A stretch of DNA of 64,000 nucleotides, taken from NCBI RefSeq assembly GCF_000724625.1, contig NZ_CP007139.1:186001-250000 (forward strand), in the 5' to 3' direction. The notes under the pieces are model-generated. The model saw only the letters and a program-made list of their open reading frames with translations, made no database searches and was not told the DNA's origin. This DNA is from Fimbriimonas ginsengisoli Gsoil 348 (GTDB taxonomy: Bacteria; Armatimonadota; Fimbriimonadia; Fimbriimonadales; Fimbriimonadaceae). Positions within the stretch are counted from its first letter, which is position 1; every line of letters starts with the position of its first letter. A program made the translations under genes and the position numbers. Below, piece by piece: positions 10,447-23,047 of this stretch.

Positions 10447-10893
10447 TCATGGATCGCGCCAGTTTTGGAGCTCGAGTCGGTGGCCAGCGGCAACTATGCG
10501 CGAGAAATGTTTGGTATTGGCGTTTACGAGGGTTAAGTTGTGAGTGATGGCGGTTGCCGCGATGAGACAATCGACCACGCCAATGGCGGTCCCAGCCAGG
10601 ACAAGGTCAGCGTTGATCACCCCAGCCAAGGCCATTACAGCTTGATCCGGGTAGATCACCTCAAACTGCGGTAAGGTTTCGTTCAGAAACTGCGAGATGG
10701 CGGCGTCGAGCCTCTTACGCCTTAAACCATCGACCACCTCCACGATAGTTAAAGCGCTCAATGTGAATTGCGGATATTCGCCTAGGTAGCGGATAGCCTG
10801 GTTTCGGGTGCTTTGCGCCCATGCAGTCTGCTGATGCTTCGGCGCGTTCAGCATGTCGAAATACGTGCTGCTATCGAGGAGCGCTTTAGGCAC
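10447..10893 (-). CDS. vapC: VapC-type PIN-domain toxin (second pair)
   Basis: A 148-residue PIN-domain protein. Candidate catalytic acids are Asp in ALLDSSTYFDM (~7), Glu in LTIVEVVDGLRRKR (~51), Asp in AIGVVDCLIAATAITHNLTL (~108), and the late NANTKHFSRI block where VapC toxins carry Asn/Asp before a conserved HF. It is a different subtype from the 4.3-kb toxin: FxxI-ending, longer and with no HRDPFDR. Its start overlaps the antitoxin end by 8 bp. Confidence 0.85.
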   Translation of the reverse strand: MPKALLDSSTYFDMLNAPKHQQTAWAQSTRNQAIRYLGEYPQFTLSALTIVEVVDGLRRKRLDAAISQFLNETLPQFEVIYPDQAVMALAGVINADLVLAGTAIGVVDCLIAATAITHNLTLVNANTKHFSRIVAAGHRLELQNWRDP

Positions 10894-11167
10894 GCGGGGT
10901 CAACTTCTCCGCCCTAATGCGGCGGCTGCCCCTCTTAATTTCGTCTACCGTATCATCCGGCAATTGCTGAAAGAGATCAACCCCCGGCACGAGTCGCTGA
11001 AATGTTTCCCAGTCGTTCCCTTGCCCAGATAATTTAACGGCTCTTGTGGACTTGCCCTTCAATGCCTCACGAATGAGCTTGGTGGCGGCTTCGGCCGGAG
11101 AAATGTGTTCCGTCTTGGCGTAAAGTTCCAGATCGCGCTTTACATTCGCGGGCAATTCAAAGCTCAT
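10886..11167 (-). CDS. Antitoxin partner of VapC (ribbon-helix-helix-like)
   Basis: A 93-residue protein. Its N-terminus MSFELPANVKRDLELYA followed by ISPAEAATKLIREAL fits a ribbon-helix-helix DNA-binding fold: a short strand and two helices. The charged tail ends GSRRIRAEKLTPRA. Position and 8-bp overlap with the PIN gene make the antitoxin role likely. The minus-strand upstream A/T-rich block at about 11173-11182 (TAATATAAAG) could be the -10 region. Confidence 0.75.
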   Translation of the reverse strand: MSFELPANVKRDLELYAKTEHISPAEAATKLIREALKGKSTRAVKLSGQGNDWETFQRLVPGVDLFQQLPDDTVDEIKRGSRRIRAEKLTPRA

Positions 11168-11232: not shown

Positions 11233-14200
11233 CTAGAGGGGCTTCTTTGCCGTAGCGGCGGAAGAAAGGGGTTCTGGGGTTCGATGCTCTAGATAGTCGA
11301 CGACAAGCGGCAGTAGCCGGTTGGCGAGGCTGAATTTGAGCATGGCGCCGCCGGTGTTGGTGTCGCGCATGAAGAAGTAGCCGGTGACGGTTTTTCCGGG
11401 GACGAAGGCGCCGTTTTGGAAGCGGCCGATGGTGAACATGAGCGATTCGCTGTCGATCTCTTCGCCCAGGGTGCCGGTTTTCATGATCGCACGGTAACCC
11501 TTGAAGTCGACTTGTATCGACTTCGCGGTGCCCGAGATGTGCACTCGCTCCAGCGGAGTCAGCAGCGCTTTCTCCCGCCACGGACCGAGCGAGATCGGGG
11601 CGGGCATCAGCGGGAAGTGCGGCTCCAACCCCTGTTCCAAGCGGGCGGAAACGCGTAAACCGGTCGAGAGGCGGGCGAACGCCTCGGCCATGGAGACGTT
11701 GTTCCACACCGACTGGGCTCCGCCGATGAGCGAGGTCAACAGCTCTTGCTTTACCGAGTGCATCGAGTCGCACTCGTACAGCACACGGCGCGGGACGACT
11801 TCGCTGGCAAAGGTCGGCATGTGGGCGTCCGCTTGCCAGGCGAGAGTCGGCAGGAAGCTCGCCATGCGTTGGTGCACCGCTTCCGACTCGGTCGTCTTAT
11901 TCGGCGGAATCTGCACGTCGTAAAGCTCGGACAGGCCCTGGAACAGCAACGTATCGCTCAGATTCGTCCGCGGCACCCACCCCCCGGTTCGAGGCTCGCG
12001 GGAGACGACGCGGTTGGGGGAGTTCAGCAGATTGATTCGGTACGGCTTGCCTTCGAGGGTGATGTCGGCGTTTGCGGCGTCGGGTACGAGCGTGGTCTTC
12101 AGTTCGTCCGTCGACTCGACCAGACCGAGCGCACCGATAACGCAGGCGGGCCAGGTGCGAGACTGGGTCAGGAATTCCGACATCGTGACCGAACCGGCGG
12201 GCGGGTAGGGCGCGGTCGGAGTCTCCAGCGGAATGCCGCCGAGGTTGTCGTGTTCCAGCGTTCGGTTGTGAACGACGGCGTCCTCCAAGTGATATTTCGG
12301 CAACAGCTTGACCGCCATCGTGGAGAAGGTCAGCGGCTTTATCGTCGAACCGATCACGTGGTTTTCGAAGTTCCAATTACGCAGCAGCTTGCCGCGCCGG
12401 ATCGGGCCGCTCCGGCCGAAGTCATCCTCATACAGGTCCGACGTAGGATCGACGTGCGGGAACGACGGAAGCGCCAGCACATCTCCCTTGAACGTGTCGA
12501 TAAGCGTCATCGACACCGGCTTCGTCCGTTCCGGGTCTTCCAGCTTCCAGTTCAGGCCGCTTCGCGGCGACTGCTGCAGGCACCAGGAGCGCAGAGCGTC
12601 CTGAAGCCGCCGATGCAGGCCGAGGTCCAACGTTAGCTTCAGGTCGTCTTTCGGCTTGACTTCGTCGCCCACGCGGCCGAGATTGGCCACCATGCCGAAC
12701 GAGGGACCACCGGGGAAGACGCGGCGGTATGCGCCGTTTCGCCAGCGGACGAACGCCAGCGGTTCGGCCTGAGTTCCGAGGTAAATCAGGTTGTATCGTC
12801 GCGGGCTTCGGCCGGTGCGGTCTTCTATGGACACGAGGTCGTTCGGCTGGAGCTGCAGCCCGGCATCCGGCACCGGCTTCCCTTCAACGAAAACGCCCCA
12901 ACCGCGCTCGCGGGGAAGCGACTGCGGGATACGGGCCTTGAGGGTGACGAACGTTTTTTTGCCGACCTTACGGCGGCGATACTCGGCGAACTCCACGCGG
13001 CCGAACGGAGAACGGGCGGCGAGAATCGCCGCGTTCGCCCGGGTCACGGGTTGGGCGGAGTCGATCCAGACCACCTCGGGGAATCCGCCTTGGTTTAGCG
13101 AGAGGCTGAGCGGGCTGCTGAGCATGTAGAGCCGGGGGGCCTCTTCACCCGCACCGGCGGCGAGGATGCTCTTACGCCACGGGATTCCCTGTCCGCGTTT
13201 GTACGGCGACGACAGGTGGAAATAGGCACGGTTGACCTCCAGGTCAAACGAGCCGGCCGCATTCGGCTGGATGTAGTAGAGTCCCGCCTGCGGGTCCGAT
13301 TTGTCGGCACGGAAATTGAATTCCCGGATCGCCTCTTTCTCGATCGGGCTGAGCCCGGGCACGGACTCCGGGTCGATGTGCCCGCTGTCCGAAAGCTTCA
13401 CTTGTCCCTGCTCCACCCGCTTCACGACCTGGCGCATTACCTCCGGAGCATCGAGATCCTGGGTGAAGGAGACCGGCATCCCGATGCCTGCGCGGGCGAC
13501 GCCGAGCCAAAGAAGCCCGGAACCAACCCCGAATGCGGTGAAGAGCCAAGAACCCGCCTTCGGTGGCACGTTGGCCCCCCGCGGCCGCCGCTTGAGGAGG
13601 ACGGAAGCGATGGTAAGGAGCACGAGCCCTTGCAGAACGTCGCCTTGCGAGTAGAGCGACAGGAGCGGCAGGTTTTGACCGGTGAACGGGAGCGATCCGG
13701 TGTTGGCGGCCGCCATGTACAGTCCGTTTGCCGCAAAGAAGCCTCCGATCGCCGCGAGCGGCACGAACATCCACGATCCATCGCGCCTCGCGCTGGCGGC
13801 GCCGGCAAAGCAGGCGGCCATGATGACCATGTATAGCGCCGTCAACCAAGCGCCCGCCCACGGCCCGAACTCGCCGAGCACGTAGATCGAGTACGTCGTG
13901 TCGGTCATGGAGGTCGGGTATTTCAGCGCCACCTTAGATAGCGGGGCGCCGCCGTATCCCGGGTTCTTGTCCGACGCGCCGACGGCGGCGTAGAGGAGCA
14001 TCTGCCATTGCTGCTCGCGGTTGTTCCGGTATTGGGTGGCCTCCAAATGCTCGGTGCGAGCCGGATTCAGCAGCATCTCCGGGTCGAGGTCGTCGAGGCT
14101 CGCGAGCCGGTAGGCCACGGTTCCGTTGAACGTCTCGAAGTGCTGGATGAAGAACCGGCGGTTCAGGCTGAGAGCGACCAACGCCAGAAGCGCAACGCCC

Positions 14201-16236
14201 AGGGCAATCGCCACGCCCGAGGTGAAACCACGCGGAGAACGCTTGGTTTGCAACGCGCGGAAAGGGAGCCAGGCCACCAAAAGAGCGAGGCCGATGGAGA
14301 GGCCATACACGAGAGCGCCGTTATCGCCGACCGCCAGCACGTTCATCGCCAGTGCGAGCAGATTCAGAACGACGAAAAATGTAAGGCCGCGGCGGTGCCA
14401 AAGCCCGATTTGCTTCCCTTCGGCTGGAGACGTGTCTTTTCGGGCCGCGACGGCAAGTGCGAATGCCACGAAACCGGCGATAAGTAGAAGATGGGTCCAG
14501 ATACTGGTGCGAATCCCGAACAGATCGTTTCGGGTGCCAAAGATCCGGGCGAGGATCGGCGCAAGCATTCCTAGCGCCGGGAGGACCAAACAGATCCGGT
14601 CGAACGGCAGGCCGAGGAACTGCTTGCGGGTTCCTTCGAGTTGCCGCTGCTTTACTACCGGCAGGTAGCGGAGCCGTGCCAGCGCCATCGCGGCCGGAAT
14701 GGCGACAAGGGCAAAGAGCGATACGCGGAGCGCCTTGTGAAAACTGACGAGCTCGCTGAGGGTCGCATCATCGGGCGGTAGGAGGGAGCACCGGTAGGCG
14801 AGCAGCAGGCGGACAGTGAGCAGGGCGACGGTTCCCACCCACAAGAATGCCCAGGCCACATCTCCGCGACCGACGGGGCGAGCCCGCCACCACAGGGCGA
14901 GGCCGAACAGAACTCCCAGCCCGGCAAACGCAAATAGGGCGAGGCGACCGGCTCCGGGAACGGAAGGTTTATCGACATGAAACCTGGCCTCGATTCCCTG
15001 CTGAAGGTCGCCGAGGTAGACCGGGGCATCGTCGCCGTGGCTCCGTTCCGAGACGCCATCCTGCACCGTCATCCCGGCAGAATCGGGTCGGGCGAGCGCC
15101 TTCGCGTAGAACGGGTGGTTATCGTTTCCGGTGGGAAAGACGAATCCGTCCATCGGCACCATGTCGCGTCCGGACGTCATGAGGAACGACTGCTCGGGAT
15201 CCGCGGGCTTTGCTTTGGGGGGCAGCGGGTACGAGACCGGAACTTCGAATTCGGCCACTAAACGCGATTCGTCGATCTTCGCCGGCAGTTTCAGGGCGAA
15301 CCGTTGCGAACCGGTGAAACCGAAGGAGAGGGTCGCGTCCTGAGTGGCGGGGATCTCCGAGGGGGCGGTTGCGGCTCTCAAGTCCAACGGTTTGTCGTTC
15401 CGAAGAACTTGGACGCCGTCGTCGGCCAGAGCCGGGTCAATGAGCACGCCGATCTTCGATCCTGAGTCTCCCTTTCTCTCCCTGACGACACAGACATCGC
15501 CGAGCATCGACCACGGGTCGACGTCCGTGCCGGCTTGGAGGGCGAGTGGGACATTGGAAGCCGGGAATCGAGTCGCTAGTCCGGCGGCTTGGAGAAGGGT
15601 GGTGAGGCGGGCGCCCTCTCGCAACTGACGGGCGGCAAGTTGGATGGTCTTCGGGTTTGCGGAGTCGCGATAGCCGATCTTCAGCGAGTCCCCGTCCCCT
15701 TCCAGGGTGACGGCGATGAACCGCTCGGGTTCTTTTCGTGAGGTTCGGAAGGTGAACTGGTACGTATCGTTCCGCTGCAACCATCCCCCGGGGATTCCAT
15801 TGACGATCTTTCCATCGATACGGACCGGGGTGTCGATATTCGGACCCTCAACCCGCCAGCTCTTGATCGCGCCGTTCGCCGCATCGGCGATGAGTCTTAC
15901 CCGCTGGCCCGCGCCAAGTCCGGGGATTTGGAATCCGTCGCGCTCGACGGCGTCGGACCGGATCGGATCGCCCGTGAACGTTAGCGCCGGCTTCGAGCCT
16001 TCGGGCGCTCGGGTGTAGAGGCCGACCTGCTGAATACGGGCGAGAGCACGAGCGGGAATGCGAGGGGAGCCGCCGGGTCCGAGTCCCATGTAACCGGCAA
16101 CGGTGATCCCGAGGAGCAGGAGCGATACCGCGCCGAATAGCGTTAGCACCCCCCGCGCCAGCCCAGACGCCTCGTCGTCTTCCCATGGCCGCACCGCCAC
16201 CGCGATGAACGCGAGCACGACGAGACCGATGAACAA
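11233..16236 (-). CDS. SEDS glycosyltransferase fused to class B PBP transpeptidase
   Basis: A 1667-residue membrane protein joining both enzymes of septal or lateral peptidoglycan synthesis. Residues 1-50 hold two hydrophobic segments; ~60-425 is a beta-rich extracytoplasmic region of unknown fold. Residues ~428-900 are multi-helix SEDS (RodA/FtsW/SpoVE-like) with YPTSMTDTTYSIYVLGEFG and TGSLPFTGQNLPLLSLYSQG; Asp779 in TDTTYS matches the catalytic Asp of RodA HTDFIF. Residues ~1190-1667 are a penicillin-binding transpeptidase: LDLGLHRRLQDAL, VLALPSFPHVDP, active Ser1297 in GSTIK (SxxK) and MKTGT at 1585-1589 (KTG). The SxN motif is non-standard; a candidate is Ser1359 in QSRT. No GT51 domain is seen. 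It is the last gene of an apparent three-gene leftward operon. Confidence 0.85.
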   Translation of the reverse strand: MFIGLVVLAFIAVAVRPWEDDEASGLARGVLTLFGAVSLLLLGITVAGYMGLGPGGSPRIPARALARIQQVGLYTRAPEGSKPALTFTGDPIRSDAVERDGFQIPGLGAGQRVRLIADAANGAIKSWRVEGPNIDTPVRIDGKIVNGIPGGWLQRNDTYQFTFRTSRKEPERFIAVTLEGDGDSLKIGYRDSANPKTIQLAARQLREGARLTTLLQAAGLATRFPASNVPLALQAGTDVDPWSMLGDVCVVRERKGDSGSKIGVLIDPALADDGVQVLRNDKPLDLRAATAPSEIPATQDATLSFGFTGSQRFALKLPAKIDESRLVAEFEVPVSYPLPPKAKPADPEQSFLMTSGRDMVPMDGFVFPTGNDNHPFYAKALARPDSAGMTVQDGVSERSHGDDAPVYLGDLQQGIEARFHVDKPSVPGAGRLALFAFAGLGVLFGLALWWRARPVGRGDVAWAFLWVGTVALLTVRLLLAYRCSLLPPDDATLSELVSFHKALRVSLFALVAIPAAMALARLRYLPVVKQRQLEGTRKQFLGLPFDRICLVLPALGMLAPILARIFGTRNDLFGIRTSIWTHLLLIAGFVAFALAVAARKDTSPAEGKQIGLWHRRGLTFFVVLNLLALAMNVLAVGDNGALVYGLSIGLALLVAWLPFRALQTKRSPRGFTSGVAIALGVALLALVALSLNRRFFIQHFETFNGTVAYRLASLDDLDPEMLLNPARTEHLEATQYRNNREQQWQMLLYAAVGASDKNPGYGGAPLSKVALKYPTSMTDTTYSIYVLGEFGPWAGAWLTALYMVIMAACFAGAASARRDGSWMFVPLAAIGGFFAANGLYMAAANTGSLPFTGQNLPLLSLYSQGDVLQGLVLLTIASVLLKRRPRGANVPPKAGSWLFTAFGVGSGLLWLGVARAGIGMPVSFTQDLDAPEVMRQVVKRVEQGQVKLSDSGHIDPESVPGLSPIEKEAIREFNFRADKSDPQAGLYYIQPNAAGSFDLEVNRAYFHLSSPYKRGQGIPWRKSILAAGAGEEAPRLYMLSSPLSLSLNQGGFPEVVWIDSAQPVTRANAAILAARSPFGRVEFAEYRRRKVGKKTFVTLKARIPQSLPRERGWGVFVEGKPVPDAGLQLQPNDLVSIEDRTGRSPRRYNLIYLGTQAEPLAFVRWRNGAYRRVFPGGPSFGMVANLGRVGDEVKPKDDLKLTLDLGLHRRLQDALRSWCLQQSPRSGLNWKLEDPERTKPVSMTLIDTFKGDVLALPSFPHVDPTSDLYEDDFGRSGPIRRGKLLRNWNFENHVIGSTIKPLTFSTMAVKLLPKYHLEDAVVHNRTLEHDNLGGIPLETPTAPYPPAGSVTMSEFLTQSRTWPACVIGALGLVESTDELKTTLVPDAANADITLEGKPYRINLLNSPNRVVSREPRTGGWVPRTNLSDTLLFQGLSELYDVQIPPNKTTESEAVHQRMASFLPTLAWQADAHMPTFASEVVPRRVLYECDSMHSVKQELLTSLIGGAQSVWNNVSMAEAFARLSTGLRVSARLEQGLEPHFPLMPAPISLGPWREKALLTPLERVHISGTAKSIQVDFKGYRAIMKTGTLGEEIDSESLMFTIGRFQNGAFVPGKTVTGYFFMRDTNTGGAMLKFSLANRLLPLVVDYLEHRTPEPLSSAATAKKPL

Positions 16237-16355
16237 GATGGCGGCGAGACAGAAAGTCAGACTGATCGGTTTTCCTCCGTAGGCCCGCCTACGTCTTGGC
16301 TAGACAGGGCGTTGCGAATCTCTTTTTGGGCCCCCAGTCGATGATAAGAAAGGCC

Positions 16356-16378
16356 CATCGGCTGGGAGCCGAAGCTAC
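16356..16378. repeat. Palindrome family D overlapping a stop codon
   Basis: CATCGGCTGGGAGCCGAAGCTAC. The stop codon TAG of the upstream coiled-coil gene (16375-16377) is formed by the CTA at the end of this repeat. Other copies: 18064-18086, 22772-22794, 28055-28077, 57824-57846 and a variant at 44265-44288. Confidence 0.75.
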
Positions 16379-17985
16379 ACGTGGACGGCGTGCGCCGCTC
16401 CCGCGCTATCGGTGCCGAAGTAGAAAGGCGAGAGCTCCAGACCCCGCTGGTGGCGGAGGAGACGGAGCAGCTCGTCGTAGTACCGGGCGTGGGCATGCGG
16501 TTGCGTCGACTCCAAGATGGTCCCCTCGCCAAGGTCCGCCAGTAGACGTTGTACGGTGGCAGTTAGCTTTCGGGCATGCGGCGTCGATCCGAAGCTGGAG
16601 GCGATTCGCTCAATATTGGTGAGCATCGCTCGGGCAAGGATCGGGTTTGGCTTCGCTACCGATTCAAGCAGCTCTGCGCACGAGAAGCTTAACAAATAGC
16701 CGACGGCCGCGGAAATTTCGGGGCGGCCGACTTCACTTTGAATGTAATTGAAAGCCTCGGCGGCCTCGCGCTGAAGGTCGGCGTAGGCCCGCGCCCGCGC
16801 GGTTAGCGCCTGAAGCTCGGCGCCCGACCGCTGGCCGCTTCGCGTCAGGGAGTCGACTTGCTGGGTAAGTTCGCGGCCGACGCGCTGGTGTTCGTCCTGA
16901 GCCTGCTTCAGTTTCGCAGCCAAAGCGTCGGCATCGGCACGGGCTTTATGGTGCGCCGCCCGCTCATCCTCGATCGACTTGACTGTCTCGTCGCGGTCCC
17001 GTACCCAAGCGTTGTGCTGGTCGCGGTACTCCTTGGAAGAGCGCTTGGTCTCCTCCAATGCCTGCTTCAACATTAGGATCTCTTCGTCCCGCTTGGCCAG
17101 GCGCGCCGACAGGTCCGCGGCTACTCGCTTGCTGTCGTCAACAGGCGCAGCCGGCTTTTTCTTTGGCGCCACCGCGGCACGAACGGCGAAGCCGGCTCCT
17201 CCCCCTACGAGCAGCGAGAGGAGCACGGGTAGCCAAGGGAACCCTGTGCCTTCTTTGGGTTCGGCCACGGTTGTGGGGGTCGCCGGCTTGCCGGAGGAGC
17301 CTCCGGTTGTGGGCGCGGGAGCGGCTAGCGCCGGCGGCGTGATGTCCAAGACGACCGGCCCCTTGGCGCCTTCGATGAGAATCGGTCCCGGTTGAACGGC
17401 AGAAGTCGAAACCGCCGATACGAAGTCGGAGAGCGGGTTCGCGCTGCCAGAGGGGGCGCCTACCTTTTGCAGGAGCGCGGCGCCGACCTGTGGCCCAGTG
17501 GCGGAAAGGCGCTGTTCTAGAAAACTCTCTACCCCGGGGGCGTCGGACGAGGTCCACCCGGAAGTTCCGTTCGTGAAGGTCGCCGAGGACTCGCGACCGG
17601 TCGGATCGTAGGCCCTCAAACGGGTGTTTTTCGGGTCCAAAACCTTGGTTTCGAGCGAGGCGCTCGGTTTCAACAGAACGACGCCGCCGAGAGGGCTGCC
17701 TGCTTGGACGGCGTCGAGGGTCGTCTTCCAAGGGGATTCAACCCCTTTTCCGACGAGCGTCTTGAGCCGAGCCAGCCAAGTTCGGTCTTTTTCTTTGCCG
17801 GCCGGTTGGATCGTCCATCCGCCTTGGGGGCTCGCGGTGACGGTCGGCGCACCTTTTAGCCAAAGGCGAATCCGTCCATCGGGAAATTGAAACACGCGAA
17901 TCGGGTCGGCGGCGGAGGCGACGGTCGAGACGAGGATTAGGCCAATGAGGACCGCGGGTCGAAGTGGGTGTGCACGGAGCGGCAC
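16375..17985 (-). CDS. Bitopic membrane protein with long cytoplasmic coiled coil
   Basis: About 536 residues from a GTG at 17983-17985. A TTG at 18093 overlapping the previous stop is possible, but the extra 36 codons fall wholly in dispersed repeats. From the GTG comes a clean signal peptide (hydrophobic AVLIGLILVSTVA, cleavage ASA-ADP). Then come an extracytoplasmic region of ~220 residues, a Pro/Ala/Thr-rich linker, one membrane helix (FPWLPVLLSLLVGGGAGFAV) and a KKK cytoplasmic anchor. A ~125-residue charged heptad coiled coil and a helical C-terminal domain follow. No enzyme motif. It lies between the vWA-ATPase gene and the SEDS-PBP gene, suggesting a scaffold that bridges them. Confidence 0.72.
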   Translation of the reverse strand: MPLRAHPLRPAVLIGLILVSTVASAADPIRVFQFPDGRIRLWLKGAPTVTASPQGGWTIQPAGKEKDRTWLARLKTLVGKGVESPWKTTLDAVQAGSPLGGVVLLKPSASLETKVLDPKNTRLRAYDPTGRESSATFTNGTSGWTSSDAPGVESFLEQRLSATGPQVGAALLQKVGAPSGSANPLSDFVSAVSTSAVQPGPILIEGAKGPVVLDITPPALAAPAPTTGGSSGKPATPTTVAEPKEGTGFPWLPVLLSLLVGGGAGFAVRAAVAPKKKPAAPVDDSKRVAADLSARLAKRDEEILMLKQALEETKRSSKEYRDQHNAWVRDRDETVKSIEDERAAHHKARADADALAAKLKQAQDEHQRVGRELTQQVDSLTRSGQRSGAELQALTARARAYADLQREAAEAFNYIQSEVGRPEISAAVGYLLSFSCAELLESVAKPNPILARAMLTNIERIASSFGSTPHARKLTATVQRLLADLGEGTILESTQPHAHARYYDELLRLLRHQRGLELSPFYFGTDSAGAAHAVHV

Positions 17986-18086
17986 GCGTAGGTGCCGGCT
18001 ACACGGCTTCGCCATAGGGGAGGCCGCTCTGGAGAGCGGCGGTCCGGGGCTTCGCCGCCGGGTCATCGGCTGGGAGCCGATGCTAC
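17986..18086. repeat. Composite repeat (family B copy 2 plus family D)
   Basis: CACGCGTAGGTGCCGGCTAC, then GGCTTCGCCATAGGGGAGGC, CTCTGGAGAGCGGCGGTCC, and finally CATCGGCTGGGAGCCGATG followed by CTAC. The first modules match 6392-6503 in order. The block fills the space between the vWA-ATPase stop (18090) and the likely start of the coiled-coil gene. Confidence 0.72.
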
Positions 18087-18089
18087 TTT

Positions 18090-21000
18090 TCAATTTTGCG
18101 GCTCCCGGGGGAGTTGGTCGGGCCAGACTTTTTTCCAGATGTTGTCCTTCAACTCGCCGAAGTTCCCAAGTCGGACGGGGGCGCCGTTGACGGCTAGGCG
18201 GCGGATCGTTCCTTCGGTCTCCGGCTGGTAAGTTACACAGAATTCGCGGCCGGTGAAGCGACCGAGGCGGCTGATCATTCCGTCGTCGAACTCGGTTCCC
18301 GAGTGGAACGCGCCGGGGGTGAAGACGAAGTAGTGGCCGACGTCGGTCGGCGTTCGAACCATGTCGGCTCCCTCCGAGTTCAGCTCCTGCATTCGCACCG
18401 AGTACACCTGGGCGGCTTCGTCGGTTTGGGCGACTTTTACGAAGCCGTACGTCCCGTGCAAGGCGTCCCGGTTCTGGGGGCGGTGCCCCGAAGTCGCGTA
18501 GACCACCGCGCCTTTGCTGCAGGCATCCTTCGAATCCTGGCCCGTCAGCGTGTCGAGCGCGACGATGTCGCGCCCCACCCGGTCTCCGAAAAGCTCCCGC
18601 AATGCCCGCCGAATCGGGCCGAATTGTGAGGCTTGACCGCCGACCACGACGTGGGTTCTGCCCCGTTCGACGATGCTTTGAATCGCTAGATCGACTTCTT
18701 CACGCACGGAGCCGAGGCTGCCGAACGCCTGGGCATCGGTCTTGTTTGCAACCGTGGCTCCGAGCTCGATGAGGAGCCGGTGGATGTTGAGTTGGACGTA
18801 ATTGCGGATCTGCGCGCCGAGCCAGTCGAGGTTGGCGGTGTCTCGCTCCTTAGCGGCACGGGCCACCTTCGGCTTGTCGGGCGCGACGCGGCGCGAGCCT
18901 TTGATTCGCGCCAGCATTTCACGCCACATTGCCCGCAGCTCCGCTTTAAACGATCGCTTCGGGCGGTCTTTTAGCGTCGCCAACACGCCGCGGCCGAGGT
19001 CTGCCTCGACGACGAGAGCGTCGTGGAGCCGCTGTCGAAACTCCTCGATTCCGGCCGATTGGTTGATCGACCAGTCGGGGATATCCAGATAGCCGATCTC
19101 GACGAAGCGCATGATGCTGCGCACGATGGTCTCGATCGCGGGTTGGGCGCTCGCCGGCGTCGTCATGGAATACCGTTCGCCAAACGCCTGCTTGACTTCC
19201 TCGACGAGGTCCGCCATCGCATAGAGGGCTTCGGAGTAGGCCGCGTCGGAGACCAGTCCCGGATTCTTCACCCAGAGGAAGCTCATCGGAGGCTCGACCA
19301 TCGGACCGAGGTTCCCTCGATCGCCGAGCAAATGGCCGTGTTCGCGGAAAACGCGCTTCAGCTCGCGCTCGAAGAACTGAACGAACAGGTAGGTGAGCTC
19401 TCCGCCGCCCGAGCTGCGCCCGGTTCGGGCTCGGACCCACACGTGCTCTTCGCCATCGACCACTTGCGTCTGAAGCAGGCTCAGATCGGTCGTTCCGCGG
19501 CCGACGTCGATGGTCAGGATCTGTGTCGACGGGGAGGGATCGTCCGAATCCGTCGCGCCTTTCGCTTTGCGCGGCTTCGATAAGTAGTAGTACGCGAGCG
19601 CGTCGGACTCCGAGATCGTGCTCACCCGTCCCACCCGCGCGTACCGCTCGACGGTTCGTCGCAGGTTTTCTGCGTGCTCGACGCTATACACGTTCGGCAC
19701 CGTTAGGATCACCTCGATCTCGTTCGGGTCGATCCCTCGCAAGATCGGCGACTGGAGGATTAGGTTACGAAGCACCTGGGTAGTCAGGTGGCCGATCGCG
19801 GTCTCCGGCGAGAGGTCGAGCGGCTCGCCGGTGATGGTCCGGAAGTTGGGGAACGCCTCTCGGATGCCGTATTGGAACATCACCTTGGGGTTTGGCAGGG
19901 TGGTGTTCACTTTAGGGGCGACCCGCGCCGACTGAAACATCAGGAAGATGCTCTGCCGGTAACCGGGCAAAATGGTCGGCTCGGCCCGAGTCAGGTCGAA
20001 GAAATCGAGCGTCGCGTGCCACTCGGGGAGGGTTCGCTCCGCCTGGTTCTCCTGGAGCTCGATTCGGCTTCGCAAGCGCGGCGAGACGTCGGCGGGGGCG
20101 CCCCCTCGCTGGGTCCAGAGAAGGTTCGGCTGCCGGTCCGGCACCATGATCGGCGCGAAATGCTGCAGTGGCACCATCCGCAATTCTTGCCCGTCGTCGG
20201 TGGCGTAGACGGCGGCCATCGAATCGGAGCCGAGGTCGAGAGCGACGTAATGCTTCATCTGTCGGGAAACCAGCGCCTTCCGGGCGGGAAGCGGACGCGG
20301 ATACGTGATCTCGGCGGAGCAGGCGTCGCTGCCGCGTCGAACCGATACGTTTGCTTGTACCGGATACGGCGGAACCTCTGCCCAGGTGGCAATCGCGTCT
20401 CCGGCAAACGCCTCGACCGGCACTTCCAGGGACGTTTGGCCTAGCCACCGGGCATCGCCATCCTTGACGGCCAGGGTTAGGGTGGCGTCACGGTAAAAAA
20501 TCCGTCGCATCCAACGGGGTGGGAGGATCACTCTCAGCGCTTCCCCGCCTACGAACGGCGGCTTCGGCACCTCGTCCGCGATCGGAGCCACCTGGATGCC
20601 AAGGGCGGGCAGCAAGATTGGATTCCCGTAGCCCGGCAGCTTTAGGCGGAAGTGCCGGCCCGCGCGCCAGGAATACCAAAGCCAAAGCGCCGTCCCCGCC
20701 ACGGTTGCGAACAGGAGAAAGAGGAAACTGTTTTCCAGCCGCCGGCCAATCGTGTGGGTGCCCGGTATCGGTACCGCGGCATTGATAACGTAGACGGTAT
20801 CGGCGCGCCGGGTACCGAGCCAACCGCCCGGTTGATCGGATGTGACGGCGAGCCGCACCGTCGCCGGCTCGACCCCGCCGGGCAGTGAGCCAAACTTCAT
20901 GGGCGACTCGAGGGTATCGCCGGCCTCGCCAACTTTCCCCTCGCCGTGGGCGTTCGGGGAACCGGCGGTGATTCGCGCCGCCGCGTGCTGCCCGAACCGC

Positions 21001-21881
21001 TTGCGGATCTTTTCGCTCGGATCGATACGAACCACCGCGGTGGGATGGGGACCTCCCTCGTCTTGCCACCCGATGTCGATCGATCCGACCGCAGGAATGG
21101 CGGCCGCTTCGGCGGACGCGCGTTCGCGAGCTCGATTCAGCACCTCGTATCCGCTGAGATAGACCGGCTTTGCCTTACCGAAGGCTCGGATCTCTTGCTC
21201 GAAAAGCGGCTCCTCGACTCCGTCGGCGCCAACAAACCGGTACTCCTTTCCGACCTTTCGCCGCAGCGCTCGAATCCATGCCGAGTCGCCGGGCCGGGCG
21301 AAGTGCTCCAGCACCTCCGCCTCTTCGGCCATGGTGCCGCCGTTCGCCTCGTTATCGCTAAGGATGAGCACGAAGGTTCGCTGGACCCTTGTTCCACTCG
21401 GAACCTGGGACGCGTCCAGAGCCATTGCTCGAGCCCACGCCAGGGCGGTCAGGTTGTAGCCCCGCTCCGGCTGAAGAGCGTCGGCGAGTTGCTCTCGGGT
21501 GACCCGCGGCTCATGCGTGATCTGAGGGTGGAGGTAATCCTTCTTAAGGTCGTGCCATTTCAGCCTTCGGTAGGCGGTCGAAGCTTCGCCGCCGGAATCG
21601 ATGCCGAATTGAAGGACCGTGACGAGATCGTGCGCCGGATCGAAGCGAGGGAGTCCCTCGAGCTTTTCACTTCCGTAAAGCGAATCGAGTAAGCGATGGA
21701 CCGCTCTCTTCGCGGAAGAGGACCGTTCCCCTTGCATCGACCGGGAGGCGTCGAGAAGGACGATCAGATGGTTGGGATGGTCCGGCACCACCGTCCCGCC
21801 TTCCGCCCAAGCTCCAACGGCCGCCGCAAGCAGAGCCGCGGCGGCCAGGAGGCGGGGGAGGAAGGACGAGTTCGAAAGCAT
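18090..21881 (-). CDS. vWA domain - membrane helix - Hsp70/actin-like ATPase fusion
   Basis: A 1263-residue protein. Residues 1-26 are a signal peptide (LLAAAALLAAAVGAWA). A von Willebrand A domain (~37-250) has a MIDAS DASRS at 44-48, a Thr in NLTALAWA and Asp in LILSDNEANGG. One membrane helix at ~385-404 is followed by Arg/Lys, so the rest is cytoplasmic. After a beta region (~410-540) comes an Hsp70/actin-fold ATPase: phosphate-1 YVALDLGSDSMAAVY (~545-559), EVILTVPNVYSVEHAENLRR, SESDALAYYYL, phosphate-2 TIDVGRGTTDLSLL (~790-803) and an adenosine-type motif HVVVGGQASQFGPIRRAL near 1085. This places a metal-dependent adhesion domain outside and a nucleotide-driven domain inside. It is the first of three genes ending in SEDS-PBP. 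Confidence 0.82.
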   Translation of the reverse strand: MLSNSSFLPRLLAAAALLAAAVGAWAEGGTVVPDHPNHLIVLLDASRSMQGERSSSAKRAVHRLLDSLYGSEKLEGLPRFDPAHDLVTVLQFGIDSGGEASTAYRRLKWHDLKKDYLHPQITHEPRVTREQLADALQPERGYNLTALAWARAMALDASQVPSGTRVQRTFVLILSDNEANGGTMAEEAEVLEHFARPGDSAWIRALRRKVGKEYRFVGADGVEEPLFEQEIRAFGKAKPVYLSGYEVLNRARERASAEAAAIPAVGSIDIGWQDEGGPHPTAVVRIDPSEKIRKRFGQHAAARITAGSPNAHGEGKVGEAGDTLESPMKFGSLPGGVEPATVRLAVTSDQPGGWLGTRRADTVYVINAAVPIPGTHTIGRRLENSFLFLLFATVAGTALWLWYSWRAGRHFRLKLPGYGNPILLPALGIQVAPIADEVPKPPFVGGEALRVILPPRWMRRIFYRDATLTLAVKDGDARWLGQTSLEVPVEAFAGDAIATWAEVPPYPVQANVSVRRGSDACSAEITYPRPLPARKALVSRQMKHYVALDLGSDSMAAVYATDDGQELRMVPLQHFAPIMVPDRQPNLLWTQRGGAPADVSPRLRSRIELQENQAERTLPEWHATLDFFDLTRAEPTILPGYRQSIFLMFQSARVAPKVNTTLPNPKVMFQYGIREAFPNFRTITGEPLDLSPETAIGHLTTQVLRNLILQSPILRGIDPNEIEVILTVPNVYSVEHAENLRRTVERYARVGRVSTISESDALAYYYLSKPRKAKGATDSDDPSPSTQILTIDVGRGTTDLSLLQTQVVDGEEHVWVRARTGRSSGGGELTYLFVQFFERELKRVFREHGHLLGDRGNLGPMVEPPMSFLWVKNPGLVSDAAYSEALYAMADLVEEVKQAFGERYSMTTPASAQPAIETIVRSIMRFVEIGYLDIPDWSINQSAGIEEFRQRLHDALVVEADLGRGVLATLKDRPKRSFKAELRAMWREMLARIKGSRRVAPDKPKVARAAKERDTANLDWLGAQIRNYVQLNIHRLLIELGATVANKTDAQAFGSLGSVREEVDLAIQSIVERGRTHVVVGGQASQFGPIRRALRELFGDRVGRDIVALDTLTGQDSKDACSKGAVVYATSGHRPQNRDALHGTYGFVKVAQTDEAAQVYSVRMQELNSEGADMVRTPTDVGHYFVFTPGAFHSGTEFDDGMISRLGRFTGREFCVTYQPETEGTIRRLAVNGAPVRLGNFGELKDNIWKKVWPDQLPREPQN

Positions 21882-21932: not shown

Positions 21933-22442
21933 TCAGGCTTCGGCGAATAGGTCACGGACGGTTTTATAGGATAAGAACAGCCGCAGCGGATTCACGGTTG
22001 AGGGGATCATGTCGAACTTTTCATAGAACCGCTTGGCTTCCTCATCCTTTGCATCTACTACAAAGAGGCGAACGGGAGCCGCTCCGGATTCCATTACGGC
22101 CCATGTCCTACGAATTGCGTCCACGAAGAGCGAACGTCCGAGACCTTTCCCTTGCACCGACCGGTCGACGGCAAATCGCGCCATAAGCACTGCCGGTATG
22201 GTGCTGGGCATCCCTCGTCCCAGTTTCTTTGGCGACTCTTCTTGTCTGACTGAGACGAATGTAAGCGTGTAATATCCGACGACACGGAGCCCGCTCGCCA
22301 CTACGTAAGTGCGGGAGAGCATCGCGTTCTGCTTATCTAATGCGTGAAGTCGCAGAAAGTCGTTCAACTGAGGCTTGCCGCAGTCGAACAGGGAAGTTTG
22401 GTGGCCATCTCGTATCGGGACGGGCGGGCTAAGCTCGATCAT
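21933..22442 (-). CDS. GNAT acetyltransferase, TacT-type toxin
   Basis: A 169-residue GNAT protein. TacT toxins acetylate the amino group of aminoacyl-tRNA and stop translation. Features are an N-terminal DGHQTSLFDCGKPQLNDFLR (the 'F.cG...Ld.fL' opening typical of this toxin clade), VVGYYTLTFVSV, MARFAVDRSVQGKGLGRSLFVDAI (acetyl-CoA loop QGKGLG) and a C-terminal FYEKFDMIPS with the Tyr general-acid position. It overlaps the DUF1778 gene by 14 bp. Confidence 0.85.
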   Translation of the reverse strand: MIELSPPVPIRDGHQTSLFDCGKPQLNDFLRLHALDKQNAMLSRTYVVASGLRVVGYYTLTFVSVRQEESPKKLGRGMPSTIPAVLMARFAVDRSVQGKGLGRSLFVDAIRRTWAVMESGAAPVRLFVVDAKDEEAKRFYEKFDMIPSTVNPLRLFLSYKTVRDLFAEA

Positions 22443-22716
22443 CCCAAACCGGTGTCTTTTTCAGGGCCTCGCGGAGGTGGGGCGTGGGACTCGCTTCGTC
22501 CATTAGGGACGCGAGCCATCGATACTCTTCCGCAGAGACGGTAACCACCGCCTCTGCGGCAATTACCTGCTCTGCCTCGCGTAGAGAGGCTTGAAGCACA
22601 AACTGACTGACGTTCATATGCCTCGCCAGCGCGGCTTGGGCAAGGACCGCCTTCTGGTCGGCACTCGTCCGAATTGAAAGTCGATCTTCTTTCCCGTTCG
22701 AGGCTAGGTGTGACAT
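22429..22716 (-). CDS. DUF1778 (TacA-type) antitoxin
   Basis: 95 residues from the ATG at 22714-22716. Longer upstream frames run into repeats. It has an N-terminal ribbon-helix-helix region (DRLSIRTSADQKAVLAQAAL, then MNVSQFVLQASLREAEQVI) and a C-terminal tail that would cover the toxin (PTPHLREALKKTPVWDDRA). DUF1778 proteins repress their own operon together with the GNAT toxin. A strong promoter lies only about 10 bp upstream, so the transcript should be nearly leaderless, which agrees with the missing Shine-Dalgarno. Confidence 0.85.
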   Translation of the reverse strand: MSHLASNGKEDRLSIRTSADQKAVLAQAALARHMNVSQFVLQASLREAEQVIAAEAVVTVSAEEYRWLASLMDEASPTPHLREALKKTPVWDDRA

Positions 22717-22726
22717 CGCAGGTTCA

Positions 22727-22756
22727 ATTGTATCACCAACGTACACCCACTGGCAA
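22727..22756 (-). promoter_or_regulatory. Sigma-70-type promoter of the TacA/TacT operon
   Basis: On the minus strand TTGCCA (22751-22756), an 18-bp spacer and TACAAT (22727-22732). The predicted start of transcription falls a few bases before the antitoxin ATG. Confidence 0.65.
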
Positions 22757-22771
22757 GGGGAAACATGGATC

Positions 22772-22794
22772 CATCGGCTGGAAACCAGTGCTAC
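22772..22794. repeat. Palindrome family D, diverged copy
   Basis: CATCGGCTGGAAACCAGTGC followed by TAC; stem CTGG/CCAG with compensating changes relative to the main family. A C-rich family A-like remnant follows at about 22800-22832. Confidence 0.6.
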
Positions 22795-22902
22795 GACCGG
22801 AACCTCCACCCCCAACCCCCCTCCTCCTCCCGTTCGCGATCTGCGGTGTCGAAATATGGGACACGGTAACCGCGACGGCAAGAGGAGGGGGCTCCGGAGA
22901 GG

Positions 22903-22932
22903 TTGGCAAAACCTGCGCGGATGGTGTAAGGT
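22903..22932 (+). promoter_or_regulatory. Candidate promoter of the ilv leader
   Basis: TTGGCA (22903-22908), an 18-bp spacer and TAAGGT (22927-22932). The -35 is good and the -10 weak (three of six consensus positions). It lies directly before the leader peptide at 22943. Confidence 0.4.
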
Positions 22933-22942
22933 GTATGTAACC

Positions 22943-23047
22943 GTGAGTTCACACGTCGTCGCGAGCAAGGTTCAGGTCCGGGATACCAAGGTGTCCGGGC
23001 TTCTGCTTGCGTCTCTATCCCTAATTATTCTAGGCATTACCACTTAA
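22943..23047 (+). CDS. ilvL: Branched-chain amino acid leader peptide (attenuator)
   Basis: A 34-codon frame starting GTG with AAGGTG 9 nt upstream. The second half reads LLLASLSLIILGITT before TAA: six Leu, three Ile and two Thr in 15 residues, with six Val (counting the GTG start) in the first half. Such a peptide senses charged tRNA for exactly the amino acids made by the downstream genes. When those tRNAs are short, the ribosome stalls and the terminator hairpin at 23083-23116 is prevented from forming. It ends 36 nt before that hairpin and 166 nt before ilvB. The symbol is used by function; homology to enterobacterial IlvL is not implied. Confidence 0.75.
   Translation: MSSHVVASKVQVRDTKVSGLLLASLSLIILGITT

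Follow-up and report, generated by a model that had tools for sequence, protein, structure and literature searches.

Results

A three-gene operon ends with a giant SEDS-bPBP protein

The stretch of DNA analysed here (the window) comprises 64,000 nucleotides of the Fimbriimonas ginsengisoli Gsoil 348 genome. Three genes on one strand form an operon in it, of which the last encodes a giant protein that joins a SEDS polymerase to a class B PBP (bPBP), and is preceded by the genes of a vWA-TM-actin/Hsp70-like protein and of a coiled-coil protein with one transmembrane (TM) helix. The end of the 1263-aa gene overlaps the 572-aa gene by 4 bases, and this overlap, together with the shared strand, suggests that the three genes are read as one transcript. 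The features of the operon and its flanks are as follows:

10447..11167 (-): flanking PIN/VapBC-like toxin-antitoxin pair, outside the system (read from the sequence)
11233..16236 (-): giant SEDS-bPBP protein, 1667 aa counted from a TTG, with four full-length homologues elsewhere
16375..18093 (-): coiled-coil protein, 572 aa, with a signal-peptide-like N-terminus, predicted periplasmic part, TM helix at ~284-310 and predicted cytoplasmic coiled coil (sequence and hydropathy)
18090..21881 (-): vWA-TM-actin/Hsp70-like protein, 1263 aa, with a signal-like start and TM helix at 384-405 (sequence and hydropathy)
18093..20321 (-): predicted cytoplasmic actin/Hsp70-like ATPase domain of the latter, residues 521-1263, with the motifs LDLGSDS, TIDVGRGTTDLSLL and GGQASQF (ordered motifs and hhalign)
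21192..21776 (-): predicted periplasmic vWA domain of the same protein, with a MIDAS-like DASRS at residues 44-48 (weak Pfam match and motif)
21933..22968 (-): flanking GNAT plus TacA-like toxin-antitoxin pair, outside the system (PF13508 and PF08681)

Reading frame and layout of the giant

The preliminary description had placed both modules in one 1667-residue chain, a claim that a stop between residues ~900 and ~1190 would have undone. The frame (11233-16236, minus strand) is intact, with no internal stop there or elsewhere. Upstream of the TTG it remains open to 16299, and the sole good ribosome-binding sequence, GGAGG, precedes an ATC at 16266; hence the start is uncertain, and the true one may lie upstream of the TTG, with the non-canonical ATC as a candidate. 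The giant is divided as follows:

16075..16236 (-): N-terminal two-helix hairpin, residues 1-54 (hydropathy)
14956..16074 (-): predicted extracytoplasmic beta-rich domain, residues ~55-427, and then a return TM helix, ~428-452 (hydropathy, low-confidence model)
13582..14874 (-): SEDS polymerase module, residues ~455-885 (hhalign, joint alignment)
13900..13902 (-): Asp779, equivalent of E. coli RodA Asp262 (alignment)
13486..13548 (-): TM helix of the PBP part, residues ~897-917 (sequence, and hydropathy of relatives)
12652..13464 (-): pedestal-like, beta-rich region of the PBP part, residues ~925-1195 (from its position between the PBP TM helix and the transpeptidase)
11272..12651 (-): transpeptidase module, residues ~1196-1655 (hhalign, PDB profile search, PF00905 in 3/5 members)
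12337..12348 (-): SxxK, Ser1297-Thr-Ile-Lys1300 (alignment)
12154..12162 (-): SxN position, Ser1359-Arg-Thr, within QSRT 1358-1361 (aligned with SCN of canonical PBPs)
11470..11481 (-): KTGT, residues 1586-1589 (alignment)

Hydropathy gives the order of two N-terminal helices, an outer region up to ~427, the return helix, seven helices, the large loop that carries Asp779, three further helices and that of the PBP part; of these last four, some are clear in the relatives only. SEDS glycosyltransferases have about ten TM helices, with a large loop after helix 7. By hydropathy, the SEDS part of the giant has ~8 helices before the Asp779 loop (return helix included) and 3 after it, with two counted from relatives only; the model of this region is of low confidence. 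From the parity of the predicted helices, we infer that the N-terminal domain lies outside, on the same side of the membrane as the Asp779 loop. The loop between the first two helices is short and, in the relatives, positively charged with arginines, as an inside location of this loop predicts. The layout is common to all five giants: a pair of membrane helices at the N-terminus, then the predicted extracytoplasmic beta-rich domain, the SEDS polymerase and finally the class B PBP. As in class B PBPs, no GT51 match was obtained with Pfam at E<=10, and the PBP part has a single N-terminal anchor (TM ~897-917, from the sequence). The pedestal-like region (~925-1195) matched no family.

The relatives settle the identity of both modules

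Simple profile tests nearly failed to recognise the two enzymes. Pfam detected no family in the window giant at E<=10, neither PF01098 nor PF00905; in the five-member family, PF00905 was weakly matched in three (best 9e-4) and PF01098 in none. NCBIfam reported ftsW only (E 0.0041, residues 768-860), and a phmmer search of the PDB with the single sequence gave no match. It was the relatives that settled the question. When a profile of the five giants was compared by hhalign, the SEDS part aligned with canonical SEDS proteins at E 6.2e-7 (probability 92%, score 59.6) and the PBP part with canonical PBPs at E 5.5e-12 (score 101.7), whereas the controls, reversed and block-shuffled templates, all scored <=25.9. 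For the SEDS part the reversed template gave 0.14 and the best of 40 shuffles scored 24.8, and for the PBP part the best shuffled score was 25.9. The Pfam check that the preliminary description had proposed found neither domain in the window giant, but profile-profile comparison links both halves to their families. A profile run against all PDB sequences retrieved 27 entries at E<=10, 23 of which were FtsI or other PBPs and 2 FtsW, the best being the PBP2 chain of 6pl5 (E 0.012). The same profile picked up several canonical PBPs and, at 1.5e-7, an FtsW of another phylum whose gene adjoins murG.

When the sequences are aligned jointly, Asp779 occupies the position of the catalytic Asp, in outer loop 4, of RodA, FtsW and fused SEDS proteins, and is invariant in giants and canonical SEDS; the role of its E. 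coli RodA counterpart, Asp262, has been described (PMC10449877). The segment PFTGQNLPLLSL aligns with PLTGITLPFxS of canonical SEDS. Both Ser1297-x-x-Lys and KTGT are invariant in the five giants and aligned with their canonical counterparts. At the SxN position four giants have SRT, among them that of the window, which therefore has neither SxN nor SxD; the fifth (G119) has SYD, i.e., SxD. From these alignments we describe the PBP half as a transpeptidase like those of class B PBPs but altered in its second motif. The positions given in the preliminary description for Asp779, Ser1297/Lys1300, QSRT (1358-1361) and KTG (1586-1588) proved exact, and its view of the SxN motif as non-standard was borne out.

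The extra outer domain

AlphaFold models built from the five-sequence alignment were poor, both for residues 1-935 (mean pLDDT 46.2) and for residues 895-1667 (mean pLDDT 37.2), and we therefore assign no fold to the N-terminal domain. In the model this domain consists mostly of strands, with a pLDDT of ~60-80 across much of 100-320. It had no sequence relative in Pfam, and a PDB profile search returned chance-level matches only. Foldseek with the 1-935 model found nothing at E<=0.001. On structural re-ranking of this model FtsW (8p1u_A) came top with a Z of 6.6, unrelated rows being within 1 of it, and weak FHA/SMAD-like rows appeared for the N-terminal domain. There is thus a hint, at the level of a model, of a beta sandwich. 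The added extracytoplasmic beta domain of the preliminary description is in keeping with the hydropathy and with these strands.

Distribution and descent

The full-length relatives (1742, 1764, 1781 and 1791 aa) come from four other genomes, all Armatimonadota: three of the genus of the window organism (G019, G020, G021) and one of another armatimonad family (G119). Four intact relatives rule out a chance fusion or a frameshift as the origin of the giant. Among 291 Armatimonadota genomes the giant occurs in five. The actin-like family of the operon was found in exactly these genomes, apart from a weak and fragmentary match in a sixth. The order of the giant and actin-like genes is kept across the loci, and a weakly conserved homologue of the 572-aa coiled-coil protein occupies the same place in 5/5. 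No further giants were found in ~100 genomes of other phyla, nor in a pattern scan of 84,980 species, which sees fairly close relatives only; plasmids, phages and viral contigs contained no relatives of the giant, and viral contigs none of the actin-like family.

The window giant is 27-28% identical to the giants of its own genus and 30% identical to that of G119, whereas the FtsW of the window organism is 56-58% identical within the genus, so that the giants follow species relationships only loosely. By these identities, their history may be either transfer between armatimonads or old paralogues that were lost in most lineages. A recent insertion of the operon gains no support from base composition, as its GC equals that of the window (0.64) and falls below it in the toxin-antitoxin flanks only.

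The operon partners and related loci

The vWA region of the 1263-aa protein scored below the Pfam cut-off (PF00092, E 0.028; PF13519, E 0.042). The window protein has DASRS at the MIDAS (DxSxS); in G019 and G021 this motif is degenerate, so that ligand binding there is doubtful. In the ATPase domain the phosphate and adenosine motifs of the actin/Hsp70 superfamily occur in order, and hhalign relates it to the MreB plus DnaK of the genome at E 1.4e-4, shuffled controls scoring far lower. It had no Pfam match, and the profile of its family had none in the PDB. The resemblance to MreB is only remote, and true MreBs are encoded elsewhere in the genome. In G019, G020 and G021 the vWA part is encoded separately from the ATPase part; the vWA protein of G119 is extended by a long middle region and an actin/Hsp70-like part of its own, and another actin-like gene follows it.

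A second locus of the window genome (G000:C1:2886000-2905000; L069:7045-16637, minus strand) encodes a Tubulin_2 protein of 1066 aa (PF13809, 1.9e-69), a vWA-like protein, an actin/Hsp70-like ATPase paralogue and a coiled-coil protein, and has no SEDS-PBP giant. A tie between this tubulin-like gene and the giant was rejected, as the gene is common in the phylum (71/291). Around the G119 giant, a zinc-ribbon, transglutaminase-like, KY-type Ig protein is encoded next to it (L016:17043-18413), and upstream there are two vWA-like proteins (assigned by eye) and duplicated kinase-like genes that share MPWPSLDEYFATLQNPDLCFADPRL (L017:11811-17299 and L016:293-1726).

The giant is an addition to a canonical set

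The preliminary description had regarded SEDS proteins and bPBPs as normally separate and had suggested looking for separate genes. These are present elsewhere in the window genome: two canonical SEDS and two canonical bPBPs, as well as one larger PBP of 800 residues, two MreB and weaker actin-superfamily matches. Each genome with a giant relative has two or three canonical SEDS. Given the complete canonical set, the giant is an addition to the ordinary wall machinery. Fusion as such, however, is not exceptional. At least six other armatimonad genomes (G109, G209, G222-G225) encode canonical SEDS-PBP fusions of 994-1117 aa, in which both Pfam domains, PF01098 and PF00905, were confirmed with strong scores. 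Natural fusions are known from the literature (PMC10449877, citing Rhodococcus RHA1), and engineered ones are active (PMC6207328, PMC10449877). Fusion alone was therefore rejected as a novelty; it is of a known kind, and what is new in the giant is its divergence, its outer domain and its operon. Neither the operon nor the extreme divergence nor the distribution over five genomes had been brought up in the preliminary description. Four of the canonical armatimonad fusions carry an N-terminal helix-hairpin-helix (HHH_3; L048:2482-5673, L049:5556-8792, L050:5796-9017, L052:5414-8398), an odd partner for a wall synthase, and a fifth carries it weakly.

Discussion

We propose, with a probability of roughly 0.58, that the giant is an accessory single-chain peptidoglycan synthase that works with the vWA-ATPase and coiled-coil partners of its operon. 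In this scheme, lipid II would be polymerised by the SEDS half, in which Asp779 serves as the catalytic base, and the newly made glycan would be cross-linked by the tethered class B PBP by way of Ser1297. One partner would be a membrane-anchored vWA-actin/Hsp70-like ATPase, its vWA outside the membrane and its ATPase part inside; the other would cross the membrane once, with a domain on the outside and a coiled coil in the cytoplasm. If MreB-RodZ/MreC-RodA-PBP2 is taken as the model, the ATPase may gate or position the synthase from the inside, and the vWA, with the extra outer domain of the giant, may read or bind something periplasmic. The link between ATPase and synthase is suggested by gene order and by co-occurrence in five genomes, four of them of one genus. 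Against an active synthase speak the failure of Pfam for both domains of the window giant, the Thr in place of the Asn of SxN in 4/5 and the poor models.

The giant could instead be a catalytically altered or dead scaffold or regulator, in which the SxN change blocks or redirects cross-linking. The SRT at the SxN position in 4/5 and the extreme divergence, to the point of no Pfam match, would fit such a protein, which we nevertheless judge improbable, because Asp779, SxxK and KTGT have stayed invariant at ~30% overall identity, and the G119 giant has SxD. Unlikely too is a role in defence, in which the giant would serve a vWA/Hsp70-type NTP-dependent conflict system as its effector or sensor on the envelope side and act on the wall when invasion or envelope damage is sensed. 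Proteins with vWA domains, HSP70-like proteins and tubulin-like proteins have been grouped in predicted bacterial conflict systems (PMC7159879), and in the window genome a second paralogue of the actin-like ATPase is encoded next to a vWA protein and a Tubulin_2 protein; moreover, the G119 locus also contains kinase-like genes and genes for cytosolic vWA-like and transglutaminase-like proteins, the distribution is patchy, and toxin-antitoxin genes flank the operon on both sides. However, PADLOC gave no match of any weight, neither a MoxR AAA+ nor a TRAFAC GTPase core was found in the three operon genes or the two that lie upstream of them (Pfam, NCBIfam), and the active-site residues of the giant are those of a wall builder. 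On account of these residues, and with no convincing match to a defence model, the wall builder is favoured over the conflict system, a choice that sequence alone cannot make final.

The dedicated partners, the new outer domain and a canonical synthase set that is complete without the giant could also suit an enzyme that makes or cross-links a wall-like polymer other than standard peptidoglycan, e.g., a stage-specific or surface layer. We give little credence to this, since no alternative-precursor gene was recognised adjoining the giant and its SEDS loop aligns with those of lipid II enzymes. That the giant is simply the RodA-PBP2 or FtsW-FtsI of the genome fused in one gene would agree with the natural fusions in the phylum, but is contradicted by the two canonical SEDS and two canonical bPBPs elsewhere, as well as by the two or three SEDS that the relatives keep, and is very improbable.

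SEDS-bPBP pairs, the core wall synthases of most bacteria, are targets of antibiotics, and there is still debate about how the cytoskeleton switches them on. With a fixed 1:1 stoichiometry, its own ATPase and a periplasmic sensor, a natural synthase in a single chain would be a compact model for cytoskeletal coupling. More tentatively, and in our view somewhat doubtfully, the accessory synthase could belong to a second, MreB-independent wall-building machine, in which the transmembrane vWA-actin/Hsp70-like ATPase and a coiled-coil linker drive the one-chain SEDS-bPBP synthase; if true, these bacteria would have a site or mode of wall growth under separate control. In addition, since the standard Pfam models miss the giant family, annotation can underestimate the numbers of SEDS and PBP genes.

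Comparison with known systems

With RodA-PBP2 and FtsW-FtsI the giants share the outer-loop catalytic Asp, the TGxxLPxxS segment, SxxK, KTGT and one PBP membrane helix between the modules. They differ from these pairs in being one chain, in the absence of a Pfam match for the window giant, in an identity of ~30% even to its nearest relatives, in the additional outer domain of ~370 residues, in SRT or SYD at SxN and in extra segments between SxN and KTG. The canonical armatimonad fusions are likewise single chains, SEDS and then PBP, but their genomes have no vWA/actin operon partner of the type of the giant. The vWA/HSP70/tubulin conflict systems (PMC7159879) also bring together vWA and Hsp70-like components in one locus, yet no MoxR or GTPase core was seen in the window locus, and a wall synthase stands in the place of the effector. 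Finally, although the ATPase of the operon is not MreB and carries, in the window, a predicted outer-side vWA, and although neither MreC nor MreD was matched among the three operon genes (Pfam, NCBIfam), the operon resembles the Rod system (MreB, MreC/RodZ, RodA, PBP2) in that an actin-superfamily ATPase, a one-pass coiled-coil membrane protein and a SEDS-bPBP synthase are found together.
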